The position numbers and the translations under genes were made by a program. Positions 1 to 14,596 of a stretch of DNA of 24,426 nucleotides are shown here, piece after piece. How positions within the stretch are numbered: position 1 is the first letter of the stretch; every line of letters begins with the position of its first letter. Under the pieces are notes generated by a model. It made no database searches, was not told the origin of the DNA, and was given only the letters and a program-made list of their open reading frames with translations. The stretch covers positions 1 through 24,426 of IMG/VR virus record IMGVR_UViG_3300024264_002845; one strand, 5' to 3'. The DNA is from a virus.

Positions 1-332
1 CCATGATCGATAATAATATCTCCTTCACTACAATGTCGTAGTAACTCATTGATAGTATCCTCTACTGATTCCGCTGGAACTACCATCATGAATATCCCTG
101 GTTGAGGGAATCGAATAGTTTCTCCAGACTTCTCACCATACAATTCTTTTGTTTTAACTACATAAACAAGATTTTCAATCGAGGTTGTGACTCCATTGAA
201 GTAACCTTTTTCATACTGTTCTTCAGCCTTTTGGTAATTGTTTCGATACCCATGTACCTCATGACCTTTTGATCTAAGACGGCGAGACATACCTTCTCCC
301 ATTCGTCCTAGTCCAATCATTCCAACTTTCAT
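1..332 (-). CDS. gnd: 6-phosphogluconate dehydrogenase, N-terminal part (cut by window edge)
   Basis: This gene is read as about 110 codons from an ATG at 332 and runs off the left edge. The N-terminus has a Rossmann dinucleotide-binding motif, GLGRMG at residues 7-12. A second conserved block, with MMVVPAE at residues 82-88 and GDIIID at 104-109, matches the NAD(P)-binding domain of 6-phosphogluconate dehydrogenases. The enzyme oxidatively decarboxylates 6-phosphogluconate to ribulose 5-phosphate and makes NADPH; in cyanophages it is a known auxiliary metabolic gene. An AGAAAGG ribosome binding site lies 5 bases upstream. The residues after the second beta strand are Y29-R30-N31-N32; the arginine suits NADP preference, which is inference. 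Oddities are His110 where many relatives have Gly (IIIDGG), and an extended segment at residues 60-78. The substrate-binding half is outside the window, so a related beta-hydroxyacid dehydrogenase is not fully excluded. The 32-base AT-rich leader (333-364) shows no convincing promoter. Confidence 0.87.
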   Translation of the reverse strand, partial: MKVGMIGLGRMGEGMSRRLRSKGHEVHGYRNNYQKAEEQYEKGYFNGVTTSIENLVYVVKTKELYGEKSGETIRFPQPGIFMMVVPAESVEDTINELLRHCSEGDIIIDH

Positions 333-364: not shown

Positions 365-580
365 TCAGTGAACATGAGCGACGTACTCTTTATGGAGTCG
401 CTTTACATCACTATCTAGTCGTTCTTCAGATGCAGTATATCCTTGACTGATCAAGTAATCCATGAAGTCATATGCTTCAGTATCAAGGACAATACCACAT
501 CTAACGAGGGAAGACATTAAGGTTCTTCTTCTTAAGAAGAACATATCATTAATCCTCCAATCACTTTCGATTGTATTCAT
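365..580 (-). CDS. Hypothetical protein, 71 aa
   Basis: This is a small soluble protein that I do not recognise. It has no signal peptide, membrane segment or metal motif; the N-terminal third is basic (LRRRT around residues 16-20) and the rest looks helical. Its ATG at 580 overlaps the stop of the preceding 52-residue gene in an ATGA arrangement. No clear ribosome binding site precedes it, so translation is probably coupled to that gene. It is the last gene before gnd. The overlap and the colinear strand support a real gene; function is unknown. Confidence 0.6.
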   Translation of the reverse strand: MNTIESDWRINDMFFLRRRTLMSSLVRCGIVLDTEAYDFMDYLISQGYTASEERLDSDVKRLHKEYVAHVH

Positions 581-735
581 GAATTTGATGGCGAGTATTG
601 GTCAAGATATAGTTTGAGTTTACATTGGAGATCATCATACTGTTCCCACATATACTCAGACCCAGTTTGTGCCTTGTAGACATCACATGCTTTGATCAGC
701 AAGTGGATGTCATCTTCTTTGAATCGCATTGCCAT
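577..735 (-). CDS. Hypothetical protein, 52 aa
   Basis: This short ORF begins at ATG 735 (MAMRFKEDD...) and ends with TGA at 577. A GGAG ribosome binding site sits 7 bases upstream (743-746), and the stop overlaps the next start by 4 bases (ATGA), which is the phage gene-packing style seen elsewhere here. The product is acidic and probably helical, with several Tyr and Asp residues (WEQYDD near residues 30-35) and one cysteine pair-free CKLKL segment. I do not recognise a family. An internal ATG two codons later (729) is a possible alternative start. Without this gene, 581-753 would be an unexplained gap in an otherwise gapless block. Confidence 0.6.
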   Translation of the reverse strand: MAMRFKEDDIHLLIKACDVYKAQTGSEYMWEQYDDLQCKLKLYLDQYSPSNS

Positions 736-753
736 TCTCTAACTCCATACTAA

Positions 754-1023
754 TTATAACGATTCTCCTTCCTCTGACTGCCCCTTGTCAAGAAACTCTA
801 ACCGTTTCTCCCAAGTGTCGCCACCCTCTTGACCCTTAGCAGGATTGATGCATGTGGCATCACCTAGAGTATTGCATACCAATCCTGCTAGATCTATATT
901 ACTACCTTTCATACCAGTACCAGACCATCTATGGTCTCCATTAATCCAGATAGCGCCACACTTGGGGCACTCTACCCTGGTCATGGAAAGATTAGATAAC
1001 TCTTTATTAGTCTCCTCGGCCAT
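754..1023 (-). CDS. Small zinc-ribbon-like protein, 89 aa
   Basis: The protein has a CPKCG knuckle (Cys19, Cys22) and two further cysteines at 50 and 58, a spacing compatible with one structural zinc site, although the second pair (C-x7-C) is wider than a standard ribbon. A WINGDHRWSGTG stretch (residues 26-37) and a GGDTWEKRLEFL segment near the C-terminus resemble, from memory, a small protein common in T4-like cyanophages. Its role is unknown. An AGAGGAC ribosome binding site lies about 9 bases before the ATG at 1023. The start overlaps the end of the upstream membrane-protein gene by 17 bases. An alternative ATG at 984 (Met14) lacks a good ribosome site. Zinc binding is inferred only from the cysteines. 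Confidence 0.7.
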   Translation of the reverse strand: MAEETNKELSNLSMTRVECPKCGAIWINGDHRWSGTGMKGSNIDLAGLVCNTLGDATCINPAKGQEGGDTWEKRLEFLDKGQSEEGESL

Positions 1024-1222
1024 TGTAATAGTCCTCTGTAAATTTTTTGGAAGGAATGCCTAGTTCTTTTTCTAGTTGTTTCTTCATCCTCCACATTCTA
1101 AGCTTTATTACGAAATATCGCAACTCAAGATCCATGTATACAAACAATCGCATCGTACCTTCGACACCTGCATATGCAACCATAAAGATTACAACCAGTA
1201 TAGAAAGATAAAATGCGATCAT
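1007..1222 (-). CDS. Small single-pass membrane protein, 71 aa
   Basis: One hydrophobic segment at residues 3-20 (YLSILVVIFMVAYAG) is followed by a strongly basic amphipathic stretch (KLRMWRMKKQLEKELG, residues about 41-56) and a polar tail. By the positive-inside rule this predicts an N-out, C-in inner-membrane protein of the host. No family is recognised; similar mini membrane proteins are common in cyanophage accessory regions. No evident ribosome binding site precedes the ATG at 1222. The 30 bases between this gene and the upstream 91-residue gene are AT-rich (ATATATAG around 1243-1250) with no promoter that I can defend. Its 3' end overlaps the next gene by 17 bases. Confidence 0.65.
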   Translation of the reverse strand: MIAFYLSILVVIFMVAYAGVEGTMRLFVYMDLELRYFVIKLRMWRMKKQLEKELGIPSKKFTEDYYNGRGD

Positions 1223-1252: not shown

Positions 1253-1528
1253 CTAACAATTCCATGCTCTTAGTGACTTTGACAGGCGATCCTCACCTGT
1301 ATTGTTAGAGGCTTTCTGTCTCTTCCTCATGCCCTTCATTCGAGCGCAGAAGGATGCCCGCCTGGGATTTCCAACCTTTTTGCTTGGTGCCTTAAGGTCA
1401 GATCCTGGATTTTCCTTTTCATAAGACTTTCGTCCTTTTTCGTTAAGTCCTCCTTCGGAGTTCTTTCCTGACTTTTTTGTCCAGGCTGCTGCCTCTGTGG
1501 TAAACTGTCCATATGTTTTCTTGTTCAT
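1253..1528 (-). CDS. Very basic conserved phage protein, 91 aa (DUF6321-like)
   Basis: This lysine- and arginine-rich protein has a core of conserved appearance: GGLNEKGRKSYEKENPG (from about residue 26), then LKAPSKK, GNPRRASFCARMKGMRKRQK and SNNTGEDRLSKSLRAWNC to the end. I recall this block as a conserved phage domain (DUF6321, from memory, not checked). The high positive charge suggests nucleic-acid binding or a virion or packaging role; that is inference. It is translated 5 bases after the stop of the 181-residue gene, with a GGGGGAT purine run 8 bases upstream of the ATG, so the two are likely co-expressed. Two cysteines (in SFCAR and at the C-terminus) do not form a recognisable metal site. 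Confidence 0.75.
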   Translation of the reverse strand: MNKKTYGQFTTEAAAWTKKSGKNSEGGLNEKGRKSYEKENPGSDLKAPSKKVGNPRRASFCARMKGMRKRQKASNNTGEDRLSKSLRAWNC

Positions 1529-1533
1529 TGGTC

Positions 1534-2079
1534 TTATCCCCCGACTACTTGCACCTGCTCAACAATAACGTCTGCCCCTGATCCAGCAGTTAGTTTTACA
1601 ACCCTTGTAATTCTTGGAATTAAAAGTGCATTCTCTTGTGCAGCTGCGAGGGTATATGCACCAGCAGCACCAGAAGCATCAATATCTGTGGTAATAGTTG
1701 TATTGGATACGGCAGTAACTTTCTTCCCAGTTGATGCAGCGCTCTCAAAGTCTGTACCAAAATTTGCAGTGTCTCCACCATCTACGGTTTGAATGTAGTC
1801 GCCAACTTCAAATGGATGTGCAGGTGTTCTGCCGTCTACATTAATCGTAATAACACTACCATCTACATTGGTAGCAGATCTAATTGAAGAACCTTTCACA
1901 GTTCCAACGTGCAAATTAGTATCTCCAGCACTAATAGCTGGAAGTTGAATTACAGGACCGTCGTTAATCTGAAGTGTACTTGCAGCAGTCGCAGTACATC
2001 TGATTGTACCAGTCTTTACTGCGATATATGCAGAACCACTGGCTGTCACTGTTGTAGTATCAAGAACGTTGAGTGCCAT
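1534..2079 (-). CDS. Beta-rich putative virion protein, 181 aa
   Basis: This Thr/Ala/Val/Gly-rich protein has no membrane segment and no charged helices, which is the composition of a beta-sandwich structural protein. The N-terminus (MALNVLDTTTVTASGSAYIAV) and the segment LQINDGPVIQLP (about residues 38-49) look like a small coat, decoration or fibre-type module. The C-terminal part carries ITRVVKLTAGSGADVIVEQVQV. I recall similar proteins beside g16 in T4-like cyanophages but know no demonstrated function. It begins 4 bases after the gp16 stop. An AAGGAAA ribosome site lies about 13 bases from the ATG, and a GATAAATA late-promoter match lies 25 bases upstream, suggesting independent late expression. 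Structural role is inference. Confidence 0.75.
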   Translation of the reverse strand: MALNVLDTTTVTASGSAYIAVKTGTIRCTATAASTLQINDGPVIQLPAISAGDTNLHVGTVKGSSIRSATNVDGSVITINVDGRTPAHPFEVGDYIQTVDGGDTANFGTDFESAASTGKKVTAVSNTTITTDIDASGAAGAYTLAAAQENALLIPRITRVVKLTAGSGADVIVEQVQVVGG

Positions 2080-2083
2080 TGTT

Positions 2084-2524
2084 TTAACTATTTCCTTCTT
2101 TAGTATTTATCTGTTTTTGTTGTTTGAGTAGTTTCTGCAGTTCTGCAGTGCTCCCAACGAACAACGCATTGGTTACATTTGTAGGACCAGACTTATTAGT
2201 TGGTGCGTCTAGTTCTCTCATTTTCTTTTGCAGATCTGCAAGTTTATCTGTCATATCTGCAACTTGTTTCATTGCATTAACTGCAACTTCATAAGCTCTG
2301 GGATGATCACTATTCAATGCAACATCAAGGGCCCCTTCTACTGCCTCTTGACCTTTCTCAATTAGAGAATATAGATTGCCCCTAGTATACTCATAATCTT
2401 TTGTTTGATCATCAGTATCATCTTTACCTTTTGGTTTGGGGACTTCTTTTACAATTTCAGTTTCTTCTGGAACATTGGGGTTAGCAATATTCAAAACATC
2501 ATCTAGTCCATCAAATGTTCCCAT
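2084..2524 (-). CDS. 16: Terminase small subunit gp16
   Basis: gp16 is the small terminase, which binds concatemeric DNA and stimulates the gp17 packaging ATPase. The protein is 146 residues, close to T4 gp16 (164). It has an acidic/lysine-rich N-terminal tail (PKPKGKDDTDDQTKDYEYTR, about residues 29-48), then a helical core. The core runs from LYSLIEKGQEAVEGAL into the coiled-coil heptads MTDKLADLQKKMREL, the region that oligomerises in T4-like small terminases, and ends with a polar tail. Identification rests on this architecture plus position directly after gp13-14-15. The start at 2524 has an excellent AAGGAG site 8 bases upstream. gp17 does not follow within the window. Confidence 0.85.
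   Translation of the reverse strand: MGTFDGLDDVLNIANPNVPEETEIVKEVPKPKGKDDTDDQTKDYEYTRGNLYSLIEKGQEAVEGALDVALNSDHPRAYEVAVNAMKQVADMTDKLADLQKKMRELDAPTNKSGPTNVTNALFVGSTAELQKLLKQQKQINTKEGNS
2104..2111 (-). promoter_or_regulatory. Probable T4-type late promoter (GATAAATA)
   Basis: On the minus strand this reads GATAAATA, fitting the NATAAATA late motif described for T4-like cyanophages. It lies inside the last codons of the gp16 gene, 25 bases before the ATG of the 181-residue gene, so a transcript would start just before that ribosome site. It is a one-base variant of T4 TATAAATA. Confidence 0.5.
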
Positions 2525-2535
2525 GATTTTACTCC

Positions 2536-3342
2536 TTAAGTAATAGTTTCATCCTGACCAGTGACAGGATTCCACTGTACATAACTATCGTTTGCAGTCC
2601 AAGTTTCACTAAACCCAAAGTCGTCGTTAACTTCTGCAGTAACTGGATCTGGTTGTGCAGTGTATCTCATAGCTCTTGGTTGATTTACAGTATCTACTTT
2701 TGTGTAAACATCTGCAATAGCCTTCTTGATAATACTGCTATCACTGACAGGACCGTAGAGATATGTCTTAGTCGAGAACTGCATTGTATAAACAATTGCC
2801 CTTCTCTTCATGTAGTCGCCCTCATAGTCATCTTCATAAGAAATACTAGTGAGGGTAATAGGTACATCTTTCTTCTCATTAATCACACTTACTAAATTAA
2901 GAGTAATATTGAAAGATGGTTGGAAGTATGGAAGAATTTGTTCAACGATCTGAACTGCATCATCACTATTTTTTGCAATGATTGCAAGTTCAAAGTCGAT
3001 GTTATATGGTACAGGCATGTATGCCTTTCGCACCTTTGACTCATTATCGGGATCAATTGCTTTAATTGTCTGGATAGGAGATACTTTTCTACTGGCATCA
3101 TAAGAAAGATTTTTTACTTCAAATGCCATCCTAGGAAGAACCATTTGTATTGGTTGTTCCTGAGTGGTTTGTTGTTCTAATCTTGCAAGAAATTTTTGCT
3201 TAGGTCCATAACTGAGAGGAACTTTCATAGACTCAATACGACCAGATTCTCCCGATCTGCGAATCTCAATGTCGTTAAACAGAGTTCCAAACCCAACAAT
3301 AGTTTTACGAATAATTTCGTGGTATGTGTATGTACCTAACAT
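2536..3342 (-). CDS. 15: Tail sheath stabilizer and completion protein gp15
   Basis: gp15 caps the contractile tail: it forms the hexamer at the head-proximal end of sheath and tube and docks to the neck. The protein is 268 residues, essentially the T4 length (272). The segment QIVEQILPYFQP (about residues 134-145) is a hallmark I recognise from T4 gp15. The N-terminus contains a GTLFNDIEIRR segment and IESMKVPLSYGPKQKFLARL, also matching the family layout. The ATG at 3342 overlaps the gp14 stop by one base (TAATG), with an AAGGAGA ribosome site about 8 bases upstream. A perfect late-promoter octamer lies 116 bases upstream, within gp14. The C-terminal 40 residues are acidic and polar and probably less conserved. 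Confidence 0.93.
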   Translation of the reverse strand: MLGTYTYHEIIRKTIVGFGTLFNDIEIRRSGESGRIESMKVPLSYGPKQKFLARLEQQTTQEQPIQMVLPRMAFEVKNLSYDASRKVSPIQTIKAIDPDNESKVRKAYMPVPYNIDFELAIIAKNSDDAVQIVEQILPYFQPSFNITLNLVSVINEKKDVPITLTSISYEDDYEGDYMKRRAIVYTMQFSTKTYLYGPVSDSSIIKKAIADVYTKVDTVNQPRAMRYTAQPDPVTAEVNDDFGFSETWTANDSYVQWNPVTGQDETIT

Positions 3343-4466
3343 TAGTAACTGTCTCCTTGATTTCCAAAGTCACCGAATGGGTTTGTTTCCGTCCAATCAA
3401 TGATATCATCTGCCTCGGTCTCGATATAATCGTTTTGATCCCAGACACTGTTAGTATTATTTATAGTGTTATATGACTCGGGACTCCACTGGGCCCCAGA
3501 AGTAATACCAGTTACTGTTTCTGCAGTAGTAAAGACTCCTGTTCTGTTGATAACCTGAAGTTCTCTTGTGGAACTATTCCAAGATTTAACTTCCGCTCTA
3601 TTGTCTTTGGGGGAGTAGTCCACTGATACAGTAGGTGAACTAGTATAACCTGTGCCCCCACTTGTAATAGTAATGCCAGTGACAATACCAGCACTAGAAA
3701 CTGTAGCAGTCGCCGTAGCACCACTTCCGCCGCCTCCTGTAATTGTGATTGATGGAGGTAATGCAGCGTTATAGTTACTACCACCATCGGTAATAGTTAT
3801 TGCAGTTACTGCATCACCTGTAATAGTTGATGTTGCCTTGGCATGATATTCATCACCTACAACTTCTTCTCCAACTGTAAAGTCTCCTGTACCACCAGGA
3901 TCCATAATAAGTTTAATTGCATTCGCAAATGTAGTTTCGATTGCATCAATTGCTGCATCTCCAGTATCAATAACTTCATCACTGTACTCAAAGAGTTCAC
4001 ATCTGATCTCGTATACAAATGCTCCGTATGGATTTTTAAGTTGGTAAAAGGGTTTCTTATACTCTACAAATTTAATTTCAAATAATTTCTTAGTTAACGG
4101 GAAGTAGATTAGATCTCCTTCATTTGGTCTACCTTCTCTAATCAAAGTAGCATTGTCATCTACTTCTTCAGTCCATCTCTTTCTGGAAACAATAAACGTT
4201 GCTTGATCAGTTACTCTAATACCAAATTTACTATACAAATCCCCATCTCCCTCAAACCCTTCAACGTTTGCAATATACATTTCCAGTGTATATGCATCGT
4301 CAAATTTTGAAGAAACATCTTCTCCAAACAACTCGTCTCTATTGACGAGTGTTCTTGGCATGTACTTTAGATCTTGTCCATAGATTTTTATTTGCTCGAT
4401 AACGAGATCCTCATAGAGGTCTCTTTCTGCTTGTGTGCCTTGAGAGAAATAGGAATTAAGTGCCAT
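3342..4466 (-). CDS. 14: Neck protein gp14 with an inserted Gly-Tyr beta-repeat domain
   Basis: gp14, with gp13, closes the portal of the filled head and receives the tail. The N-terminal MALNSYFSQG...LYEDLVIEQIKIYG matches the T4 neck-protein family. I start at ATG 4466, one base after the gp13 stop, with TTGGA just upstream; a TTG start at 4475 would add only MDD. The product is 374 residues, far longer than T4 gp14 (256). Much of the excess is at about residues 200-290, where GDEYHAKA leads into two copies of an ITITxGGxxY beta repeat rich in Gly, Thr and Ala. That repeat also occurs in the giant structural protein. The C-terminus is acidic (DIIDWTETNPFGDFGNQGDSY). Gene order 13-14-15 makes the assignment firm. 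Confidence 0.92.
   Translation of the reverse strand: MALNSYFSQGTQAERDLYEDLVIEQIKIYGQDLKYMPRTLVNRDELFGEDVSSKFDDAYTLEMYIANVEGFEGDGDLYSKFGIRVTDQATFIVSRKRWTEEVDDNATLIREGRPNEGDLIYFPLTKKLFEIKFVEYKKPFYQLKNPYGAFVYEIRCELFEYSDEVIDTGDAAIDAIETTFANAIKLIMDPGGTGDFTVGEEVVGDEYHAKATSTITGDAVTAITITDGGSNYNAALPPSITITGGGGSGATATATVSSAGIVTGITITSGGTGYTSSPTVSVDYSPKDNRAEVKSWNSSTRELQVINRTGVFTTAETVTGITSGAQWSPESYNTINNTNSVWDQNDYIETEADDIIDWTETNPFGDFGNQGDSY
3458..3465 (-). promoter_or_regulatory. T4-type late promoter motif (TATAAATA) inside gp14
   Basis: This is an exact minus-strand TATAAATA, the octamer recognised by the phage late sigma factor gp55. It lies in the 3' part of gp14, 116 bases upstream of the gp15 ATG, so it could give extra gp15-gp16 transcripts. 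It could be a chance match in coding sequence (it encodes part of a Thr-Ile-Asn-Asn stretch), but this octamer is rare and I did not see it on the plus strand. Confidence 0.5.
3600..3870 (-). repeat. Gly-Tyr beta-repeat insert within gp14
   Basis: The insert holds two tandem units, ITITDGGSNYNAALPPSITI and ITITSGGTGYTSSPTVSV, separated by a GGGGSGATATATVSSAG linker and preceded by YHAKA. The same pattern, including YHAKA, recurs in the 3,073-residue protein at 15390-15560. It is probably a surface-exposed beta domain added to the neck protein. Confidence 0.7.
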
Positions 4467-4467
4467 A

Positions 4468-5268
4468 TCATCCAATCAGATCTAGTGGTGGAAGTTCATG
4501 ATGATCTCTAAGTTCTTTACCTAGATTTTCTATAGTTTGAACAGCATCATCATATATTTTAGTCCCATTGAGAGTTACGCCGCCAGGAAGTTGTACACCA
4601 TCATACTTGATGAGGTTTGCTCCCCACTGTCTTTTGAATAGAGCAGTGGTGTAATCAAGCATCCATGGTTCTTGGTAGATCTTAGGGAAGTTATCTGGAT
4701 CGATAGACTTATAACAATCAATGATAATATACTGATCTTCTCTAGTATCTGAACGAAAATCCATATCAACATATAGACGATCAGTAGTTTGAGTGTATCT
4801 AACAGGTTTCTTTCCAACTAAAAGGAAATCAATCTGTGCCAGTTGTTGTTGAATAATATAGTAATGTGCAAAAGATGCTGACGTAAAGTCATACATATCA
4901 TTCAGTCTCATTTGATAACGAACATCAAAGAAACTCATTGAGTTCTTATCACCAAAATCAAAGATACCTTGGACACTAATCACATCAGTTGGCAGTTGAA
5001 TATATGTCTGACCTTCTTCATATACTGTTCCGTCAGCAGTAGTAATAGTATCGTTTGTTTCTCGCAGTCTTGTTATTTCTGCTGCAGTAAACTTATGCTT
5101 TAAATAAGCATGATACATACTATCATAACCAAACTCCTGAAACTTAGACAATGCATAATCGATTGCATCATCAAGTTGAGTATCATCAACATTGATTTCC
5201 AAGACTGGTTTACCCAATCTTCTCAAACAATATTCTTTAAGTTCTGTTCTAGTAGTTGGTTTTGCCAT
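4468..5268 (-). CDS. 13: Neck protein gp13
   Basis: gp13 joins the packaged head just below the portal and, with gp14, stops DNA leaking before tail attachment. The protein is 266 residues (T4: 309). The N-terminal LKEYCLRRLGKPVLEINVDD followed by LDDAIDYALSKFQEFGYDS is characteristic of T4-like marine phage gp13; the C-terminal WMLDYTTALFKRQWGANLIKYDGVQLPGG block is likewise typical. No signal or membrane segment is present. It starts 6 bases after the stop of the 655-residue fibre gene, without a clear Shine-Dalgarno sequence, so translation is probably coupled. The next gene, gp14, begins one base after its stop. Confidence 0.92.
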   Translation of the reverse strand: MAKPTTRTELKEYCLRRLGKPVLEINVDDTQLDDAIDYALSKFQEFGYDSMYHAYLKHKFTAAEITRLRETNDTITTADGTVYEEGQTYIQLPTDVISVQGIFDFGDKNSMSFFDVRYQMRLNDMYDFTSASFAHYYIIQQQLAQIDFLLVGKKPVRYTQTTDRLYVDMDFRSDTREDQYIIIDCYKSIDPDNFPKIYQEPWMLDYTTALFKRQWGANLIKYDGVQLPGGVTLNGTKIYDDAVQTIENLGKELRDHHELPPLDLIG

Positions 5269-5274
5269 TGGTTA

Positions 5275-7242
5275 TTATAGAGCGGCGATACGGGTCTGGA
5301 AGTCAGCAAAGTCAGTTGCTGCTGCAACTTCTGTTTTGAGAGTTGCTAATGTAATTGTCTCCGCTTGAAGTGCAGAGTCAGCAGTTGTTCCCTGTGCAGC
5401 AGTTGCATATGCAGTTGCGTCAGTAGTAGCAGCAGTACCAAGACCCAAAGCGGTGATGGCTGCTGATGCACGAGCATCGGCACGAGCGTCTGTGTAATAA
5501 AGGTTCGTTCCCTCAGTAAGATCTGTTGTAGATGCAGCAGCAATACGAGCATCTGCTCTAGCATCAGTAAAGTAAAGATTCGTAGAACCTTCGGACAATG
5601 CATCAGTATCTGCATTAGTAATACGAGCGTCTGCCCTAGCATCCGTATAGTAGAGGTTAGATCCTTCTGCCAGATCACCAGTGGACACACTATTCAGGTC
5701 AAGGTTTGCACCCACCTGTAATGCAACTCTAGCATCTGCCCTAGCATCCGTGAAGTACAGATTGACACCCTCTGTTAGATCTGCAGATGTTTTCTGAGAT
5801 AGATCAAGGTTAGTACCAGTCTGTAGGTTGACACGAGCGTCTGCTCTAGCATTTGTATAGTAAAGATTGGCACCCTCTGTAAGGTCTCCAGTATCCTTTG
5901 TGGCAAGATCTGTATCAAACCTAGCAGATGTATAGTAGACGTTCGTAGAACCCTCTGTGAGGTTGTCTGCGTTCTTTGTGGCAAGATCTGTATCAAATCT
6001 AGCAGAAGTATAATAAACGTTAGTAGAACCCTCTGTCAGTGCGTCTGTATCGTGATTTGCAATACTAGAAACTGTACCAGTGACATTACCAGTCAAGTTC
6101 GCTTGTACTGTTGACGCAACAAATGTTTCAGAACCGATCGTCCATACATCATTAGTCTCGTCCCAGACAAACGTTTTGTTTGCATCATCTCCACGCTCAA
6201 TCTCAATACCACTATCTTCTGTTGCACCTCCAGTAGCATTACTGTTCAGAACAATTGTGTTGTCTGCCAGTTGAATAGTTTCTGTATTCAGAGTTGTGGT
6301 AGTACCTGCAACTGTTAGATCTCCATTAACGGTTAGATCATTGAAGGTAACATCATCTGTAATTGCAACTGCCTGACCAATAGAGAACCTACCAGCGGCA
6401 CCATTATAGCTTACTCCAGTTCCACCACTAAACTCTGCACGAGCACGTGCTGGAGTAAAGTATAAGTTTACTGGGTTAGCATCCTCAATAACGTCATCAG
6501 TAAACTGGTTTGGGAAACCAACTGACTGACCCAGTTGAACTTGAGTGTTATTAATAGTGAAGTATGGATATGTCAGAGAAGTATTTGGAATACTTGCAAG
6601 TTCAAATACTCCAGTACCACTATTAAAACTCAATCCAGTATTAGGTGTTACCGTTACTGCAGCTCTTACTCTTGCTTCAGTAAAATACTTGTTAGCAGGT
6701 GAAGGGTCTTCCTGAACATCATCAGTGTTTAGTGTTCTTGCTGCACCAAGACTGGTTGCAATACCATTAATGGTAATACTTGAGTTTGTGATTGCAGTGT
6801 TAGGAATACTTGCAAGTGCAATAACACCAGTAGTACTATTGTAAGTTGCACCAGTTCCTGTCGTGGCACTGAAGTGTACTCTTGTTTCTGCAGCACTAGG
6901 TCCAGCATATGCAAATACACCTGTCCCACTATTGTATGCAAGTGTACCATCACCACCTGTTTGGTTTACAGATAATACAGCACGTGCTCTTGGAGTTGTA
7001 AAGTAGATATTGGTAGGAGTTCCAGACTCTTGGATATCATCTGTATCAAGAGTTTGTGATCCGCCTAGATCAATATCATATCCATTAACTATAAGTCCGT
7101 CATTGACAAGACCTGTGTTTGGAATATTCTGGAAGGTTACAGAATTATTAGCGTTCAGAGTTGCATTTCTAACAGCTCTGTTCTCGTCAACGATCTCAGT
7201 TCCCTGAATCGATAATCCTTCTTTTACGTTGAAATTAGCCAT
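5275..7242 (-). CDS. Repetitive tail-fibre/fibritin-like structural protein, 655 aa
   Basis: This fibrous virion protein is built of repeats. The N-terminal half has three degenerate units (TDDIQES...NIYFTTPRARA, TDDVQED...KYFTEARVRA, TDDVIED...LYFTPARARA), alternating with SIPNT and YNSGTGVF beta segments. A central module has TVAGTTTTLNTETIQLADN and KTFVWDETNDVW. The C-terminal half has seven LTEGxNLYYTDARADAR-type repeats, then LGTAATTDATAYATAAQGTTADSALQ, a familiar phage tail-fibre motif, and a short helical end. No enzyme motif is visible. The position directly before gp13 is that of wac (fibritin) in T4, but the sequence is not fibritin. An AGAGGG site lies about 9 bases before the ATG at 7242. 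Whether it is a tail fibre or a neck whisker is unresolved. Confidence 0.82.
   Translation of the reverse strand: MANFNVKEGLSIQGTEIVDENRAVRNATLNANNSVTFQNIPNTGLVNDGLIVNGYDIDLGGSQTLDTDDIQESGTPTNIYFTTPRARAVLSVNQTGGDGTLAYNSGTGVFAYAGPSAAETRVHFSATTGTGATYNSTTGVIALASIPNTAITNSSITINGIATSLGAARTLNTDDVQEDPSPANKYFTEARVRAAVTVTPNTGLSFNSGTGVFELASIPNTSLTYPYFTINNTQVQLGQSVGFPNQFTDDVIEDANPVNLYFTPARARAEFSGGTGVSYNGAAGRFSIGQAVAITDDVTFNDLTVNGDLTVAGTTTTLNTETIQLADNTIVLNSNATGGATEDSGIEIERGDDANKTFVWDETNDVWTIGSETFVASTVQANLTGNVTGTVSSIANHDTDALTEGSTNVYYTSARFDTDLATKNADNLTEGSTNVYYTSARFDTDLATKDTGDLTEGANLYYTNARADARVNLQTGTNLDLSQKTSADLTEGVNLYFTDARADARVALQVGANLDLNSVSTGDLAEGSNLYYTDARADARITNADTDALSEGSTNLYFTDARADARIAAASTTDLTEGTNLYYTDARADARASAAITALGLGTAATTDATAYATAAQGTTADSALQAETITLATLKTEVAAATDFADFQTRIAAL
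5455..6060 (-). repeat. LTEG-YYTDARADAR tandem protein repeats (seven copies)
   Basis: Seven imperfect copies of (D)LTEGxNLYYTDARADAR occur every 20-35 residues. The two copies nearest the N-terminal side read YYTSARFDTDLATK and are nearly identical to each other; the other five read DARADAR or NARADAR, some with an inserted ALQVGANLDL-type spacer. Repeats of this kind are common in marine phage fibres and probably form trimeric beta or alpha-beta shaft segments. Confidence 0.85.
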
Positions 7243-7264: not shown

Positions 7265-10200
7265 TTAGGTTAGATGTGTTTTGTGGAGTTTGACAGTTAC
7301 TGATGTAGATGCAGGAACACCAATAATAGACAGAACGATCTGACCACCATTGCCTGCGTCGTAATCAGCGGAGAATCCATACCCGATAGAGTTTGGATTT
7401 ACAACTGCATACTCTGTCAAGTTGATTGCAGTTGCGTTTTGCATATCAGTACCATCGTATGTCATGAGAATCTCAGACATATATCTTTGGTTACTGGAGT
7501 TAATTACACAGACTGTATACTTGATACCATCTGCATCATTAGGTGTGCTTCCATCTGCATCAATTTGATATGGTGTGGAAACATTTGTACTTGAAATACT
7601 AGAGGTCTTTGCAGAACTCTTAGATGTAGAACTGAGGACAACTGCAGGAACAGCAACATCAGTAGTAACAATCAGATTGTCTCTGACTGTCAGATCACCA
7701 TCAACAACTGCATTTCCAGAAACTGCAAGGTTGGATGCCTCAACTTCTGCAGTAGAAGCATTGGCACCAGCACCAACTGCGAAAGCAGTAGAACCAACTT
7801 GTAGTTGACCTTGAACATCAACGTCACCAGATGTGGTGATATCAAGGTTATTACCAGCAGGGTTGGAAAGAGTGTCACCGTCAAGTCTCAGGTTGTCTGC
7901 ATTAAGTTGACCAACTACATTCAGAGTGTTTGTAATATCAACTTGTTCTGAAGTAACAATGTTACCAGCAGATGCCAGAGTCAGATTGCCAGTTGTAGAC
8001 TCAACTGTATTACCACTTGATCTGATGTTATCAACATCAATCTGTCCAACGACAGTCAAGTTTCCAGTGACAGTTGCGTTCAGATCAACCAGAAGATCGT
8101 CAGTGACATTGACTGTACCACCATCAGAATCCAGAATCAGGTTACCTGAAGAGGTGCCGATTTCATTTGCAGCATCAGTACCAATCTTCAGATCACGGAT
8201 GTTTGCTCTGTTGGTAGAAGTGATGTTTGCATTGAATGTAGAAGTTGCATTAACAGTTAATGTATCTCCAGCAGCATCACCAAGAGTTGTATTGGAATCT
8301 ACTTGTAGGTTTCCATCAACTTCTACATTGTCTGTGATATGAACCTTACCACCTGCAGAATCAAGGATCAGATCGCCTGTAGTTGTAGAGATTTCATTGT
8401 CTGCATCAACACCAATTTGAACTGCATCAGCAGTGATATTAGTCGAAGTGATTGCAGCAACGAATGTAGAGGTTGCATTAACAGTTAGAGAATCACCAGA
8501 AGTAGCACCGAGAATTACGTCATCATTTACTGTCAGATCATTACTTACTGTGAGATCAGCAGTAACTGATACACTATTGGTTGTAGAATCAAGAACTAAA
8601 GAACCACCAGATGCACTTATAGTTTTAGTACTGAATGAGATGTCATCAATCGTTGCAGTACCATTAATGTCAACAGCATTCGGGAATGTAACCGTACCGT
8701 TGATAGTATGAACATCATTAGATGCATCACCAATAGTAGTGTTACCGTTGATTGCAGCGGTTCCAGATACTGTGAAGTTGCCAGTGATGTTTGTGGAATC
8801 ATTGAGTTCAATAGTTCCAGTTCCATCAGAATACAGTTCTAGGTTAGCATCGTTCTGAGATGGTGTGATGGAGTTATCAAGAATCTCAAGTTGTTCAACA
8901 ACTACCTTACCAGTGCCATTTGCATAGATGTTCAGGTTACCGTTAGTAGGTGTTGAGAAGATATCACTTGTATTAATTGCAACGTTATCAGTATCCAGTC
9001 TGCCAAGGATAGTGACTTGTGATGCGTCAAGAGATGTACCAAAAGAAGCATCATAAACAGTATTGATATTACTGTTCAGTTTAATAACACCAACACCGTT
9101 TGCAGCAATATTAAGATCGACGTTAGTTGTCTGGACATTCAGAGTGTTGCCATCCAGACGCATGTTATCAACATTTAGTTGAGTTACCAAACCAAAGTTG
9201 GTAAGCGTGGAATTACTAATTGAACTGCCAAGAGTTGTTTGTGACAGTACGTTATTAGAATTAATAAAGAACGACTTGTTAACAGCAAGTTCCAAGTGTT
9301 CCGAAGAAGTCCAAGCGTTTGATGCATCGTACCAGTTAAAGGTTTTATCAGTTGCACCTTTAAGTGTTAAACCACCACCATCAGCAGTCGCATCAGTTGG
9401 ACTTGCAATAGTACCCAGTTCTAGGTTCTTATCATCCACCTGAACTGTAGTAGAATTAATGGTAGTAACCGTACCCTGAACATCAAGGTCGCCACTAACT
9501 ACCAAGTCATTATTGATTGTAGTAGTACCAGATCCTGCACCCAAACTCAGGGTTGTTGCCGCACCGAAAGCATTGACTGTAGTAGCGACTGTGTTGAATA
9601 CCGAGATACCTGCCTGTGTACTTACGATAGTTGGATTACCAATCGTCAGAGTACCAGAATCATCTCCGATATTAATTGCAGTTCCATCACCAAATGCATT
9701 AACCGTAGTAGCGTTAGCATCGAGGAGATTAAACGTGGTTTGATTAGTAGTGAGGTCACCACCTTTTACCTGAATATCACCTTCCAGAACAACTGCAGCG
9801 TTATTGATTGTTAGTGTTCCACTAGATGCACCAATATCAATTGTCGTAGCAGTACCAAATGCATTAACGGTAGTAGCGTTTGTTTCTAGTAGATTGAATG
9901 TTGTTGCATTAGTTGTAAGATCTCCACCGTCAACATTCAGATCAAGATCAATATCAACGTTGTTTCTGATGTTTGTAGTACCAGAAGTTGCAGCAAGTTG
10001 AAGTGTGCTTGCAAGAGCAAATGCAGTTACTGTGGTTGCATTTGTGTTGATCAGATTAAATGATGACTGATTGGTGATAATGTCTCCACCCTTAACTCTG
10101 AGATCGCCTGCAAGGTCAACTACAGATCCAGCAGCACCAACATCGATCTGACCAGTTACAGACTCAAGGAAACTTACTGTACCACCTACAACGTTCGTAG

Positions 10201-13200
10201 AGATTGTTGCTTGACCGTTAACTCCATTACCTCTAATCTGTAGTTCTGCATTACCACCTGTACCACCGATGTTAACAGTAGCAGTGTTTGCACCCAGATT
10301 GATCGTGCCAGTAACACCATCAAACAGGTTGACTGTACCAGTAGTGACGTTAGTGTCATACTCAATCGTACCACCAGTGCCGTTACCAGTCAGAGTGATG
10401 GTATTGTCATTAGATGCGTTACCAAAAGTAAACTCAGCATCTCCACCTGCACTGTTACCAATGTTCAGATCAGTTACTACACCAAATGCATTGACCGTAG
10501 TCGCATTGGTTTGAAGGAGATTAAATGTAGTCTGATTAGTTGTGAAGTCTCCGCCTTGTACTTCCAGATCCTCACCGACATAGAGGTTCTTAGTAATACC
10601 TGCACCACCAGTGACTCTCAGTGTACCAGTTGTATCTGAGGTTGATTGTGTACCCGTACTAAGGATCAAAGTACCTGCAATGATACCAGCATCAACACCA
10701 GTAACTACTTCATTAGCATTTGATGCTCTCTCTAAGAAGTGATAACTCTGAGCACTGATATCCCAACCAAAGAATCCAAGTCTATTTGCGCCATCATAGT
10801 AGTTGAATTCGATACCAACATCATTTGTATGAGCACTACCAGGAACAGTATCTCTAAAGAGTTTGATGATCGGATCATCAATCGTTACTTCAGTAGAGTT
10901 AATTCTAAGAACGCCGCCGTTGACAGTTACATTGTCTTCTAGAATAGTTGTTCCATGTACCTGTAGGTTGTCTGGTGACAGTGCCGTACCAATCGTTACA
11001 TGATTGTTGAATTGAGAAGTATTAGTGACTTCCAGTGTACCTGCAATGAATGTATTACCATTGTCAGTATCAACTGTAAACTTGTTATCGTTTGCGTTGT
11101 TCTGAATTGCAAACGTCTTATTGTCAGCGTTAATTGTAACGTTATGTTGGAAGGTTGCAGCGTTATCAACATTCAGAGTTGAATCAAGGTCAACTGCATC
11201 GATGACGTTGACTGTACCTTGAATAACTGTATTGCCTGTTGCACCTGCAATAGTTACATTGCCGTTACCGATGTCAGTATCGGACTCAACAGTTAGTGTA
11301 CCTTCTAATGCAGTGTTACCGTTTGCAGAATCAACAACAAACTTATCTACATTAGACTGATTTGTAATCTTGAAGTAGTTGGTTGCAGCGGTGTCAGAAC
11401 CTGCAACAGTTACATTCTTATTGAGTGTTACGTCATCATCTACATTCAGTGTACCTGAAATATCTGTATTACCACTTCCACTAACAACCTCAAACTTAGT
11501 AAGACCTGCCTGAGATTCAATCTTAAAGTATCTTGCCTGTGCTCCAGTTGCAGCAGTCGAACCAATAATAGTTACGTTCTCATTGAACGTTGCATCGTTA
11601 TCTACATTCAATGTAGAATCAAGATCAACAGCGTCAATAACGTTCAGTGTACCTTGGATAACTGTATTACCAGTATCTGTAGCAACAGTGAACTTGTCTA
11701 CTTGTGAACCATTCTGAACTGCAAACTCCTTACCTGCCTCATCAACAACCAGAGAGTCATTGATTGTAGTCAGACCTTGGACAGTGACAGTTCCTTGGAT
11801 ACTAGTGTTACCATTATCTGTGTCTACAGTAAACTTCGATACACCAGCGTCTGTCTTGATGTCAAATACTTTATTATCTGCTCTTACGATAAGGTTATCT
11901 GTGATCTCAGTTTCTAACTGAACATCCAGTGTACCTTCGATAACAGTGTTACCAGTTGCACTTTCAATAGTGACTTTATCAGTAGTACCACTTCTAACAG
12001 CGAAGTTAGCATCAATGTCAACTGTGCCGTCAATCTCAACGTTACCAAGAAGGTGAGTCGTGCCACCGACGTTAAGATTCTCAGAGATACCAACACCACC
12101 AGTGACTACAAGAGTACCAGTTGTAGGAGTCTTCCAAGTAGAAGACGTAGCAGTTGTTAGTCTGAGGTTACCAGCAATAAGAGAAGCGTCTGTACCAGAG
12201 AATACTTCGCCTGTGTTAGTCGCGTCGTGGAGGAACCTATACCCACCAGTGCCAGACCATATGTTAGAGTCTGTATAACTTTCGTCCCATCCGAAGAATC
12301 CAACCCTTGCTTGTGTATCATAGTATTTAAATTCAATACCTCTGTCTTTGTTGTCATCTGACGTTGGGGCTGTGTCCCCGCCCAGAGTGAAGATAGGATC
12401 ATCGATGGTTACTACAGTCGAATTCACTGTAGTCGTGGTTCCATTGACTGTCAAGTTGCTCTGCAACGTAACGTCACCTTCGACGTTCAGGATACCTTGG
12501 ATATCGGTGTTACCATTGTCAGTGTCAACCGTGAACTTATTGACTGAACCAGCAGTACGGATGATGAACTCTTTATTGTCCGCCGTGACAATTAGATTAT
12601 CTGTAATCTCGGTTTCAAGTTGAACGTCAAGAGTACCTTCAATTGTGGTATTGCCGTTATCTGTATCAACAGTAAACTTAGAAACACCAGCATCAGTTTT
12701 GATATCAAATACTTTATTATCTGCACGAATAATCAGATTGTCAGTGATCTCGGTCTCTAGTTGGACATCGAGAGTACCTTCAATTACTGTATTACCAGTA
12801 TCGGTATCGACAGTAAACTTGTCAACACCAGCACCAGTCTGAATCTTAAAGTCTTCATTGTCAGACTTGACAAGCAGAGTATCGTTAATCTCTGTCTGAT
12901 TGCCAATCGTGACGGTCTCTTGAATATGAACATCACCAGAAATACCAAAACCACCAGTAACAATTAGAGTTCCTGTTGTAGTAGAAGTAGAAGCAATATC
13001 AGAAGAGAGTGTCAGGTTACCTGCCAGAATACCAGCATCAGTACCAGTAACAACCTCTGCTGTATTTGTTACTGTATCGAGAAGTCTAAACTTGAGTTCG
13101 GAATGATCCCATCCGAGGAACGAACGTTTTGAAGATGTGTCCCAATAGTGGAATGTGAATCCTCTATCTTTTGTATGTCCAGCGAGTAAAGCGGTGCCTC

Positions 13201-14596
13201 TAGACTCACCACCAATATCAATAATTGGATCTGCAATCGTTACATTAGATGCATCAATCCAGAAGTTAGTTGCAACATAAGAGTTGCCATCATTAGTTGC
13301 ATTTGAATTATCATTATCTCTTCTCAAGAACTGATTTGATGTAAGGTTATCAAATAAGTCAGCGTTAAGGTTAATAACCTTTCTAGAAGATGACACCTGG
13401 AATGGAGGAAGACCACTCTCTGATTGAGTTCCATCTACTGTTCCAGAACCTTCAATTGATCTCAGACCTGCCTGGGTACTGGTCATACGAGCAGAAGTCG
13501 TAATGACACCAACAATTTCTAAAGCACTAGCAGGACTTGAAGTATTGACACCAACTCTATCATTTGTAGAGTCTACATACAGGGTATCAATATCAACTTG
13601 AAGTTCTGTAATGGTTGTGAAACCAGTATAAACTTGACCCAGAGTATACTGAGTAGAACCAAAGGTTACAAGAGGATTTTGCAGTTGATCGTTATCAACA
13701 CCTTGTGCGGCGATTGTTACTATACCAGCAGCAACATCAAAATCTTCAGCATCAAATTGTGAAAGACCTAATTGAGTTTCAGATGCAAGAGCGATAGGGT
13801 GGTCAACTGCCGTAGTGACTCTACCCTTTGCATCAAAAATTAGTTTTGTTACATTAACAGACGCATCACCAGAAGTTCTAGTTAGTGATGGATCATTATA
13901 TGTGCCTGCAGTTACTGTTGTATCAGAAAGACCAATGGTAGGATTTCCACTTACACCATCCCCATCAGTAATATCAATCTCTCCACTATCACCAGTAATA
14001 GTTCTAACAGCAACCTCACTAGAGGATGTTCTAGAAATAATGCCTAAAGACGTAAGACCTGAGATCGCTGTCAGTGTGGAGTCTAGTCCCTGAGCATCAG
14101 TGATACCATAGTCATTAAGAGTTGTTGGGTTTGTTGCAGAAGTTACTCTACCTTTGGCATCAACAGTAACTTTTGTATAGGTGATGCTTGTATCACCTGA
14201 AAATATTTCTCTAAGAAGAAAGTTAATATCAATGTTCTGAGAACCATCAAATGATGCTTGACCAGTTAAGTCAGATACATTAGACGCAGCAATAGTCCTT
14301 GCGGTACTAAGTTGATTGGCAGATTGAGCCGAACCAAACAATAAACCACCTGCTGATAAGGTGATGTTTCTAGCTTTAATACTAGATGTTGAATCTCTTA
14401 GTACAAGAGTGTTGGGAGTAGCATCGACAGACTCTAATGGCCTCTCATACTTTAAATTACCCCACTGTGTGGAACCATCACCGACCTTGATACGGCCAGT
14501 GTCAATCTCAACCCCTAGTTCTGCTTCTGCGAGAACGGGGTTAAACTGTGTCCATTCAGTAGATGTACCTCTCCTGAGTTGAATTCTGTTCGCCAT
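7265..14596 (-). CDS. Giant modular tail fibre protein, 2,443 aa
   Basis: This is probably a long host-recognition fibre subunit. Residues 1-55 (QLRRGTSTEW...LAEAELGVEIDTGRIKVGDGSTQWGNL) match the N-terminal domain of the tropism-determinant/tail-fibre type. Residues about 80-200 carry the classical fibre repeats TARTIA...QASFDGSQNI and KVTVDAKGRVTSATNPTTLNDYGITDA. The shaft holds several repeat families: DRGIEFKYYDTQARVGFFGW modules, KFTVDTDNGNTxIxGTL units, TTFNLLxTNATTVNAFG units and LTVNATSTF units. The C-terminal 130 residues form a non-repeated globular domain (KYTVCVINSSNQRYMSEILMTYDGTD...), a type common at the tips of marine phage fibres. An AGGAAG site lies about 7 bases before the ATG at 14596, with a perfect late promoter 38 bases upstream. 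No lyase or peptidase motif is recognised. The host receptor cannot be inferred. Confidence 0.85.
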   Translation of the reverse strand: MANRIQLRRGTSTEWTQFNPVLAEAELGVEIDTGRIKVGDGSTQWGNLKYERPLESVDATPNTLVLRDSTSSIKARNITLSAGGLLFGSAQSANQLSTARTIAASNVSDLTGQASFDGSQNIDINFLLREIFSGDTSITYTKVTVDAKGRVTSATNPTTLNDYGITDAQGLDSTLTAISGLTSLGIISRTSSSEVAVRTITGDSGEIDITDGDGVSGNPTIGLSDTTVTAGTYNDPSLTRTSGDASVNVTKLIFDAKGRVTTAVDHPIALASETQLGLSQFDAEDFDVAAGIVTIAAQGVDNDQLQNPLVTFGSTQYTLGQVYTGFTTITELQVDIDTLYVDSTNDRVGVNTSSPASALEIVGVITTSARMTSTQAGLRSIEGSGTVDGTQSESGLPPFQVSSSRKVINLNADLFDNLTSNQFLRRDNDNSNATNDGNSYVATNFWIDASNVTIADPIIDIGGESRGTALLAGHTKDRGFTFHYWDTSSKRSFLGWDHSELKFRLLDTVTNTAEVVTGTDAGILAGNLTLSSDIASTSTTTGTLIVTGGFGISGDVHIQETVTIGNQTEINDTLLVKSDNEDFKIQTGAGVDKFTVDTDTGNTVIEGTLDVQLETEITDNLIIRADNKVFDIKTDAGVSKFTVDTDNGNTTIEGTLDVQLETEITDNLIVTADNKEFIIRTAGSVNKFTVDTDNGNTDIQGILNVEGDVTLQSNLTVNGTTTTVNSTVVTIDDPIFTLGGDTAPTSDDNKDRGIEFKYYDTQARVGFFGWDESYTDSNIWSGTGGYRFLHDATNTGEVFSGTDASLIAGNLRLTTATSSTWKTPTTGTLVVTGGVGISENLNVGGTTHLLGNVEIDGTVDIDANFAVRSGTTDKVTIESATGNTVIEGTLDVQLETEITDNLIVRADNKVFDIKTDAGVSKFTVDTDNGNTSIQGTVTVQGLTTINDSLVVDEAGKEFAVQNGSQVDKFTVATDTGNTVIQGTLNVIDAVDLDSTLNVDNDATFNENVTIIGSTAATGAQARYFKIESQAGLTKFEVVSGSGNTDISGTLNVDDDVTLNKNVTVAGSDTAATNYFKITNQSNVDKFVVDSANGNTALEGTLTVESDTDIGNGNVTIAGATGNTVIQGTVNVIDAVDLDSTLNVDNAATFQHNVTINADNKTFAIQNNANDNKFTVDTDNGNTFIAGTLEVTNTSQFNNHVTIGTALSPDNLQVHGTTILEDNVTVNGGVLRINSTEVTIDDPIIKLFRDTVPGSAHTNDVGIEFNYYDGANRLGFFGWDISAQSYHFLERASNANEVVTGVDAGIIAGTLILSTGTQSTSDTTGTLRVTGGAGITKNLYVGEDLEVQGGDFTTNQTTFNLLQTNATTVNAFGVVTDLNIGNSAGGDAEFTFGNASNDNTITLTGNGTGGTIEYDTNVTTGTVNLFDGVTGTINLGANTATVNIGGTGGNAELQIRGNGVNGQATISTNVVGGTVSFLESVTGQIDVGAAGSVVDLAGDLRVKGGDIITNQSSFNLINTNATTVTAFALASTLQLAATSGTTNIRNNVDIDLDLNVDGGDLTTNATTFNLLETNATTVNAFGTATTIDIGASSGTLTINNAAVVLEGDIQVKGGDLTTNQTTFNLLDANATTVNAFGDGTAINIGDDSGTLTIGNPTIVSTQAGISVFNTVATTVNAFGAATTLSLGAGSGTTTINNDLVVSGDLDVQGTVTTINSTTVQVDDKNLELGTIASPTDATADGGGLTLKGATDKTFNWYDASNAWTSSEHLELAVNKSFFINSNNVLSQTTLGSSISNSTLTNFGLVTQLNVDNMRLDGNTLNVQTTNVDLNIAANGVGVIKLNSNINTVYDASFGTSLDASQVTILGRLDTDNVAINTSDIFSTPTNGNLNIYANGTGKVVVEQLEILDNSITPSQNDANLELYSDGTGTIELNDSTNITGNFTVSGTAAINGNTTIGDASNDVHTINGTVTFPNAVDINGTATIDDISFSTKTISASGGSLVLDSTTNSVSVTADLTVSNDLTVNDDVILGATSGDSLTVNATSTFVAAITSTNITADAVQIGVDADNEISTTTGDLILDSAGGKVHITDNVEVDGNLQVDSNTTLGDAAGDTLTVNATSTFNANITSTNRANIRDLKIGTDAANEIGTSSGNLILDSDGGTVNVTDDLLVDLNATVTGNLTVVGQIDVDNIRSSGNTVESTTGNLTLASAGNIVTSEQVDITNTLNVVGQLNADNLRLDGDTLSNPAGNNLDITTSGDVDVQGQLQVGSTAFAVGAGANASTAEVEASNLAVSGNAVVDGDLTVRDNLIVTTDVAVPAVVLSSTSKSSAKTSSISSTNVSTPYQIDADGSTPNDADGIKYTVCVINSSNQRYMSEILMTYDGTDMQNATAINLTEYAVVNPNSIGYGFSADYDAGNGGQIVLSIIGVPASTSVTVKLHKTHLT
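8070..8560 (-). repeat. LTVNATSTF / NEI...LILDS repeats in the long fibre
   Basis: There are two full units and a partial third, of about 75 residues each. Each has GDxLTVNATSTFxAxITSTN, IGxDAxNEIxTxxGxLILDSxGG and a VTDxLxVD link. They lie in the distal shaft, ahead of the C-terminal domain. Confidence 0.75.
9500..10560 (-). repeat. TTFNLLxTNATTVNAFG repeats in the long fibre (five copies)
   Basis: Five copies of GGDxTTNxTTFNLLxTNATTVNAFGxxTxLxIG are present, one of them altered to ATTVTAFALAST and the last shortened to VFNTVATTVNAFGAATTL. Between the first and second copies lie extra GTINLGANTATVNIGG-type beta segments. Confidence 0.8.
10560..13250 (-). repeat. Three dispersed copies of a ~115-residue DPI-DRGIEFKYYD module
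   Basis: Copies lie at about 12890-13245, 12060-12425 and 10560-10915. Each reads VTIxDPIxxLGGD, (D)RGIEFxYYDxxxRxGFFGWD, F(L/H)xxATNTxEVxxGTDAGIIAGxL, TSTTTGTLxVTGGxGIxxNLxVG. A shorter relative at about 9270-9480 (VDDKNLELGTIAS...DKTFNWYDASNAW) resembles the central module of the 655-residue fibre. Confidence 0.8.
11000..12900 (-). repeat. KFTVDTDNGNTxIxGTL repeats in the long fibre (about ten copies)
   Basis: There are about ten units of roughly 40-45 residues, of the form (ITDNLIVRADNKVFDIKTDAG)-SKFTVDTDNGNT-xIEGTLDVQLETE. One KYYDTQARVGFFGW module splits the array into groups of three and about seven. Two units, near 11811-11940 and 12650-12780, are almost identical in protein yet differ at about one base in five, mostly at third codon positions. 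Confidence 0.82.

Follow-up and report, generated by a model that had tools for sequence, protein, structure and literature searches.

6-Phosphogluconate dehydrogenases (6PGDHs) fall into two recognised subfamilies, the long-chain enzymes, whose helical domain is duplicated, and the short-chain enzymes, which are restricted to prokaryotes and tetrameric except for one dimeric case, as set out in the available part of a previous study (PMC8900737). The NCBI family labels conflict on the cofactor of the short-chain form, TIGR00872 being named 'NAD(+)-dependent' and NF007161 'NADP-dependent'. For cyanophages, the accessible portions of earlier work cite a hyperplastic region between g15 and g18 (PMC2984593) and report a mobile zwf-gnd-petE-PTOX cassette (Sullivan et al. 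2010, PMC3037559), with gnd listed among the 'host' genes supplying NADPH; phage oxidative pentose-phosphate genes are generally proposed to serve phage nucleotide synthesis, while zwf and gnd of cyanophages are described as little researched (available part of PMC10452541). The occurrence of cyanophage gnd in the gp16–gp17 region is already published, and the location described here is in that sense known. The portions of this literature available to us contain no statement that cyanophage gnd belongs to the short-chain subfamily, nor any on its cofactor motif or on a half-length form.

Here we analyse a gnd gene at the edge of a 24,426-base stretch of DNA that constitutes the entire virus record IMGVR_UViG_3300024264_002845 (the window). 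We put at roughly 80% the probability that it encodes a complete short-chain 6PGDH of a cyanophage lineage, distinct from the enzyme of picocyanobacteria, which is predicted to prefer NADP+ and would supply NADPH and pentose for infection.

The recognised and large genes of the window all lie on the minus strand and comprise long structural-type open reading frames (ORFs) followed by gp13, gp14, gp15 and gp16, six small ORFs and gnd (Table 1). The gnd ORF (332..3, 110 codons) is open at the contig end and in profile searches matches phrog_1319 (E = 9.8e-41), phrog_3646 (4.4e-36) and the Pfam family NAD_binding_2 (1e-14); it matched 239 of 50,697 phage records. Profile searches found no gp17 in the 24,426 bases. 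The layout described by the sequence-only reading, with gnd on the same strand behind structural and packaging genes, gp16 present, gp17 missing and six small genes in the interval, is accurate in the details open to checking. Elsewhere in the window, three very long virion-type ORFs (5275-7242, 7265-14596 and 15188-24409; 655, 2443 and 3073 amino acids) were seen, the first two visibly repetitive, and the C-terminal part of gp14 carries Gly-rich modules in common with phage structural protein families. The DUF6321 domain at 1253-1528 stands alone; its best family, phrog_727 (a 450-position profile), has the DUF6321 stretch near its C-terminus, and elsewhere in phages the domain is part of a longer protein (T4-GC_110).

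Table 1. Positions of gnd, its diagnostic codons and its neighbours in the window, with the half-length relatives in other phages
Feature	Coordinates	Strand	Basis
gnd 5' part, codons 1-110 of 354, short-chain 6-phosphogluconate dehydrogenase	1..332	-	ORF call and profiles; completed by L001:5287-6351
Arg30 codon, end of strand beta-2	243..245	-	sequence and alignment
Lys35 codon, aligned with Lys of the long-chain motif Asn-Arg-Thr-x-x-Lys	228..230	-	alignment
His110 codon (IIIDHGNS)	3..5	-	alignment
small ORF, 71 aa, without family match	365..580	-	ORF call and profile searches
small ORF, 52 aa, phrog_5190	577..735	-	coordinates converted from L001:4884-5042
small ORF, 89 aa, phrog_484	754..1023	-	profile match
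small ORF, 71 aa, phrog_1181	1007..1222	-	profile match
small ORF, 91 aa, DUF6321	1253..1528	-	profile match
ORF, 181 aa, DUF7243 / phrog_682	1534..2079	-	profile match
gp16, terminase small subunit	2084..2524	-	profile match
gp15, tail sheath stabiliser	2536..3342	-	profile match
gp14, neck / head closure Hc2	3342..4475	-	profile match
gp13, neck / head-tail adaptor Ad2	4468..5268	-	profile match
half-length Gnd	L175:7001-7489, L176:7001-7477, L178:7001-7471, loci L179-L258		

The full-length gene was recovered from a second contig, L001 (8,017 bases), which overlaps the window over 5,618 bases at 99.964% identity, extends 2.4 kb further and belongs to the same phage. Its gnd encodes 354 amino acids with both Pfam domains, among them the 6PGD C-terminal domain PF00393 (78.4 bits against a cut-off of 27), and the catalytic residues K206, N210 and E213 are all present (catalytic stretch GAGHFVKMVHNGIEYG), so that the C-terminal domain and catalytic Lys and Glu on which the sequence-only reading hinged are in place. 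Downstream, L001 holds a small ORF overlapping the end of gnd (phrog_1542), phrog_593, more small ORFs, phrog_814 and the start of an endonuclease, and it ends approximately 1.7 kb past gnd, before any gp17. Since phrog_814 and the endonuclease stand shortly before gp17 in relatives, directly or with the phrog_1181/phrog_484 pair between, gp17 probably follows the endonuclease at the L001 end in this phage. An exact-pattern scan with the L001 end returned L001 and two contigs of other phages (pieces at 74–90% identity) and no extension of the genome; for a scan with the gnd stretch, the L001 contig was the sole match. In one rearranged relative (L269, 5,037 bases), the GC47 and phrog_593 genes, which normally follow gnd, lie upstream of gp16.

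For comparison we assembled 84 phage rows (the best 80 of 526 matches, several of the contigs being near copies, plus three isolates and the window); of the best 80, 63 (at least 330 amino acids) entered a first residue count, 50 different complete sequences the dN/dS estimates and 23 the tree. Against these were set 80 cellular short-chain rows, which as the best 80 of 570 are biased towards phage-like sequences; eight cyanobacterial short-chain rows, from ten loci less L260 (the same gene as L092) and L266 (partial); and 11 long-chain rows from ten genomes, one of them outside the host lineage. A few non-cyanophage records that also matched Gnd were left out of the alignment; three of them (MT837359, OR846669 and MT835586), short records bearing the labels Bacteriophage sp. 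or Enterococcus phage, cover almost all of Gnd at 31–38% identity and may be bacterial DNA.

The phage Gnd is a member of the short-chain 6PGDH subfamily with intact catalytic and substrate residues. The L001 protein scores above both short-chain cut-offs (TIGR00872, 332.5 bits versus 297.2; NF007161, 375.1 versus 271) and below that of the long-chain model (TIGR00873, 165.2 versus 426.7), and its 354 residues cover TIGR00872 from end to end (positions 1–295 of 299) without a duplicated helical domain. The closest solved structures by sequence are short-chain 6PGDHs (4e21, 8ihe, 6vpb and 10gw/6xeq), as are the first 17 fold matches of an AlphaFold model that served for fold class only and not for cofactor placement, its mean pLDDT being 76.2, with poor values from about residue 290 (block means 43–57), and its whole-chain rmsd to those 17 best matches 16.9–18.5 Å. 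K206, N210 and E213 are kept in all 72 sampled phage rows that reach them, the other 12 of the 84 being cut by contig ends (nine) or shortened genes (three; L005–L007), and the SGG substrate loop and the tail residues R345 and H351 are invariant in a 32-row alignment. The phage enzyme is probably tetrameric.

The cofactor loop sets the phage proteins apart. All 84 sampled phage rows have Arg at position 30, where strand beta-2 ends; the Asp that is usual there in short-chain enzymes, though neither universal nor defining, is absent from all of them. The 80 cellular short-chain rows (best 80 of 570) have Asp (68), Ala (7), Asn (4) or Glu (1) and never Arg, and all 11 long-chain rows have Asn. 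Position 31 is Asn in 80 and Arg in four of the 84 phage rows, and Arg in 11 of 11 long-chain rows, while Lys35 is found in all 84 sampled phage and all 11 long-chain rows and in a single one of the best 80 of 570 cellular rows. Among the rows examined, Arg at position 30 is peculiar to phages. The eight cyanobacterial short-chain rows are mixed (Asn in three, Asp in three and Val in two at position 30; Lys35 in five), so a shift towards NADP+ is not peculiar to phages.

According to the available part of PMC8900737, mutating the conserved Arg and Asn revealed that both matter for NADP+ specificity, and an Asp replacing the Asn at this place hinders the 2'-phosphate; an Arg after beta-2 does, as the sequence-only reading proposed, bear on cofactor choice. 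Because Arg30 replaces this NADP+-hindering acidic residue and Lys35 is present, the phage enzyme most likely prefers NADP+, the motif Arg-Asn-Asn-x-x-Lys pointing to this cofactor through an arrangement unlike the Asn-Arg-Thr-x-x-Lys of the host. The main competing reading is that phage Gnd keeps the NAD+ preference typical of short-chain enzymes and makes NADH rather than NADPH, in keeping with the name of TIGR00872 and with a phage Arg that sits off the classical Arg column; we consider it unlikely given the change from Asp30 to Arg and the Lys35 found in every sampled phage row, at a place where Asp hinders the 2'-phosphate (PMC8900737, as far as available). Since Arg occupies the Asn/Asp column of the phage loop and Asn the column where Arg is usual, the pocket is not a classical Asn-Arg-Thr, and dual or NAD+ use is possible. 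The preference predicted for NADP+ concerns a motif common to all sampled cyanophage rows, within a family model named for NAD+.

A second departure, the His in place of the usual Gly in the IIIDGG block that the sequence-only reading had pointed out, is real (IIIDHGNS) and phage-specific in our sample: the 84 phage rows have His (80) or Asn (four) at position 110, whereas Gly is found there in every one of the 80 cellular short-chain (best 80 of 570), eight cyanobacterial short-chain and 11 long-chain rows. Position 110 lies two residues before the conserved Asn112, a substrate-binding residue in sheep 6PGDH, and any effect of His110 would therefore more likely concern the substrate or nicotinamide than the 2'-phosphate.

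Relatives place gnd in the slot after gp16. In each of the seven stretches showing both gp16 and gp17 (L010, L035 and isolates L173–L177, chosen from matches), the interval between them contains gnd or, for L175 and L176, the half-length version; this, with the available parts of PMC3037559 and PMC2984593, bears out the assignment of cyanophage gnd to a variable region after gp16. Structural genes upstream and/or gp17/gp18 downstream were found within 7 kb in 36 of 80 environmental gnd loci; of the rest, 37 showed neither flank marker but were limited to less than 5 kb on one side or both, and seven had at least 5 kb on both sides without structural genes or gp17/gp18. One of these seven (L019) carries a ferrochelatase-like gene approximately 2.4 kb upstream of gnd. 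The gp16–gp17 slot is thus common and not universal for phage gnd, consistent with the mobile cassette reported in the accessible part of Sullivan et al. (PMC3037559).

Profile searches of L001 and the window gave no match for zwf, petE or PTOX. The leftward extension proposed by the sequence-only reading therefore recovered, through L001, the C-terminal part of gnd and small genes, and no zwf next to gnd; as far as the sequence reaches, the island consists of small genes and gnd, with a possible remnant of a zwf leader. At L001:6575-6904 there is a conserved 109-amino-acid ORF whose first 24–49 codons match the zwf leader of zwf-bearing phages. This ORF is perhaps a scar at a site of zwf loss; zwf remnants in cyanophages are mentioned by Sullivan et al. 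(PMC3037559, available part).

We also considered whether gnd and zwf were captured together from a bacterium. Among the best 80 of 570 cellular short-chain gnd loci (L081–L160), zwf lies within the stretch examined in 43, and in 33 it comes after gnd on the same strand at a distance of at most 300 bases, in the order of the phage cassette. By identity, however, syn9 Zwf lies slightly nearer to host Zwf (38–41%, median 39.1, to 12 host rows) than to the bacterial protein (32–41%, median 35.8, to 41 rows), and in a tree phage Zwf groups with two long-branched rows, with a long-branch warning.

Phage gnd is a maintained gene under purifying selection. The median dN/dS of the full gene, by simple Nei-Gojobori counts for pairs with dS of 0.1–2, is 0.154 (1,223 of 1,225 pairs of 50 sequences), and that of its N-terminal domain alone 0.186. 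Since the catalytic, substrate and tail residues are kept, the simplest reading is a conversion of 6-phosphogluconate to ribulose-5-phosphate with production of NADPH: the enzyme would oxidise and decarboxylate 6-phosphogluconate to ribulose-5-phosphate and CO2 and reduce NADP+ to NADPH, and we infer a role in infection in which NADPH and pentose would be supplied for phage nucleotide synthesis. That gnd is instead a decaying passenger of the variable region that does nothing useful seems very improbable: gnd of L001 has neither zwf nor petE nor PTOX beside it, the conserved small ORF behind it begins like a phage zwf leader and L005–L007 hold a shortened gene, but the L001 reading frame and catalytic residues are intact and its dN/dS against L002, L004 and L008 is approximately 0.10–0.17 (0.049/0.511, 0.063/0.371 and 0.097/0.636).

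The sequence-only reading had called the gene host-like, and this does not hold. Of 386 Cyanobacteriota genomes drawn, 57 carry CsoS2, a carboxysome protein that we take to be a marker of alpha-cyanobacteria, the group to which marine Synechococcus and Prochlorococcus belong, and these genomes served as the host-lineage set. Long-chain gnd (TIGR00873) exceeds its cut-off in 57 of these 57 genomes and short-chain gnd (TIGR00872) in none; the short-chain form exceeds its cut-off in nine of the 386, all outside the 57. Ten host-lineage long-chain loci (nine genomes) are 28–30% identical to phage Gnd, and the best 80 of 570 cellular short-chain loci 46–53% (50–56% for 22 aligned ones). The gnd tree that the sequence-only reading had proposed (115 rows) unites the 23 phage rows in one long-stemmed clade (SH-aLRT 100), and a branch with support 100 sets apart the long-chain rows, including those of the host lineage. 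Next to the phage clade stand three cyanobacterial rows, in a placement that is weakly supported (85) and involves a very long branch. That gnd is an ordinary host-derived gene, a shortened and fast-evolving descendant of the cyanobacterial long-chain enzyme, in line with the common treatment of cyanophage metabolic genes as host genes (PMC5083919; PMC3037559; both as far as available), is scarcely credible and is rejected by short-chain scores about twice the long-chain score on L001 Gnd, by the lack of a short form over cut-off in all 57 host-lineage genomes, by long-chain identities of 28–30% versus 46–56% for bacterial short-chain proteins and by the tree. For the non-host gene we infer an ancient bacterial donor; given the nine short-chain carriers among 386 genomes and the three cyanobacterial rows next to the phage clade, its source may lie in another cyanobacterium.

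In many phages gnd is replaced by a half-length Gnd (Table 1). Its stop-terminated frame measures 155–158 amino acids in 77 of 80 loci and 153–163 in 79, one running open; these are the best 80 of 209 matches, some of which are possibly full-length genes. A search with the full protein likewise left 64 of 250 phage records without any place covering 80% of Gnd, and among the 60 rows listed, 15 (H105–H119) cover residues 1-172 or 1-178 only. The half-length protein stops before Lys206, Asn210 and Glu213, is without the substrate loop, has Ser at position 30 in all 80 loci (best 80 of 209) and shows a median dN/dS of 0.123 (1,271 of 1,275 pairs of 51 sequences). Its AlphaFold model is a Rossmann-like domain (pLDDT 82.5), and 6PGDHs are the structures that it matches best. 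S-MbCM6 and ACG-2014b carry the half-length gene in the same slot, after petE, under the annotation '6-phosphogluconate dehydrogenase'; in S-SKS1 it lies elsewhere, near a phosphate-transport gene and tRNAs. A third state, a 202-amino-acid gnd with a changed substrate loop, no C-terminal domain and phrog_593 directly after it, occurs at L005:3757-4365, L006:6861-7469 and L007:5746-6354.

In a tree of the N-terminal domain (15 full, 20 half, 27 cellular and three long-chain rows), the half-length proteins form one clade that falls inside the full-length phage enzymes as a neighbour of L035 (97/82); its branch is long, which makes the exact place unsure. A single loss of the catalytic domain thus seems to have occurred on one phage branch, where the cofactor-binding domain persists as a new protein; our guess is that it partners Gnd, of host or phage, as a regulator or competitor. 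Phage gnd counts that include half-length forms would be inflated, because those of ACG-2014b and S-MbCM6 bear the full enzyme's label without its catalytic residues. We lean, somewhat beyond an even chance, towards the combined history in which cyanophages carry out the second oxidative pentose-phosphate step with a non-host short-chain 6PGDH whose cofactor loop was rebuilt once within the phages, from Asp (NAD+) to Arg-Asn-Asn-x-x-Lys (NADP+), and one branch of which later dropped the catalytic domain and retained a bare Rossmann domain as a new, conserved protein.

No new system is proposed here: cyanophage gnd is a well-known gene that has been mis-filed as host-type. Among isolates, syn9, S-RSM4 and ACG-2014h carry the same gene (T4-GC_920, phrog_1319) in the same gp16–gp17 slot, and the L001 protein is 75–86% identical to 13 aligned phage relatives and up to 93% in another comparison; by contrast, gnd here is without petE, PTOX and zwf in the available sequence and is preceded by six small genes. 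With the bacterial short-chain 6PGDHs (TIGR00872; 4e21, 8ihe for Gnd2 of M. tuberculosis and 6xeq/10gw from Gluconobacter oxydans), phage Gnd has in common its length class, domain plan and catalytic, substrate and tail residues, but it differs at positions 30 and 35 (Arg and Lys, against Asp and Ala as the commonest residues), in His or Asn for Gly at position 110 and in an insert at approximately residues 60–78 whose length varies among phages. The long-chain 6PGDH of the alpha-cyanobacterial hosts, at about 470 amino acids, is expected to catalyse the same reaction and shares with phage Gnd a positively charged cofactor loop that includes Lys35, but reads Asn-Arg-Thr where the phage protein reads Arg-Asn-Asn. 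A parallel lies in phage TalC, which, in the available part of PMC10452541, is similarly a phage pentose-phosphate enzyme substantially unlike its host homologue TalB in sequence; kinetics are reported there for TalC, whereas cyanophage zwf and gnd are said to have received little work. Together, Gnd and the TalC/TalB pair suggest that phages use compact, host-foreign isozymes for this pathway rather than copies of the host enzymes.
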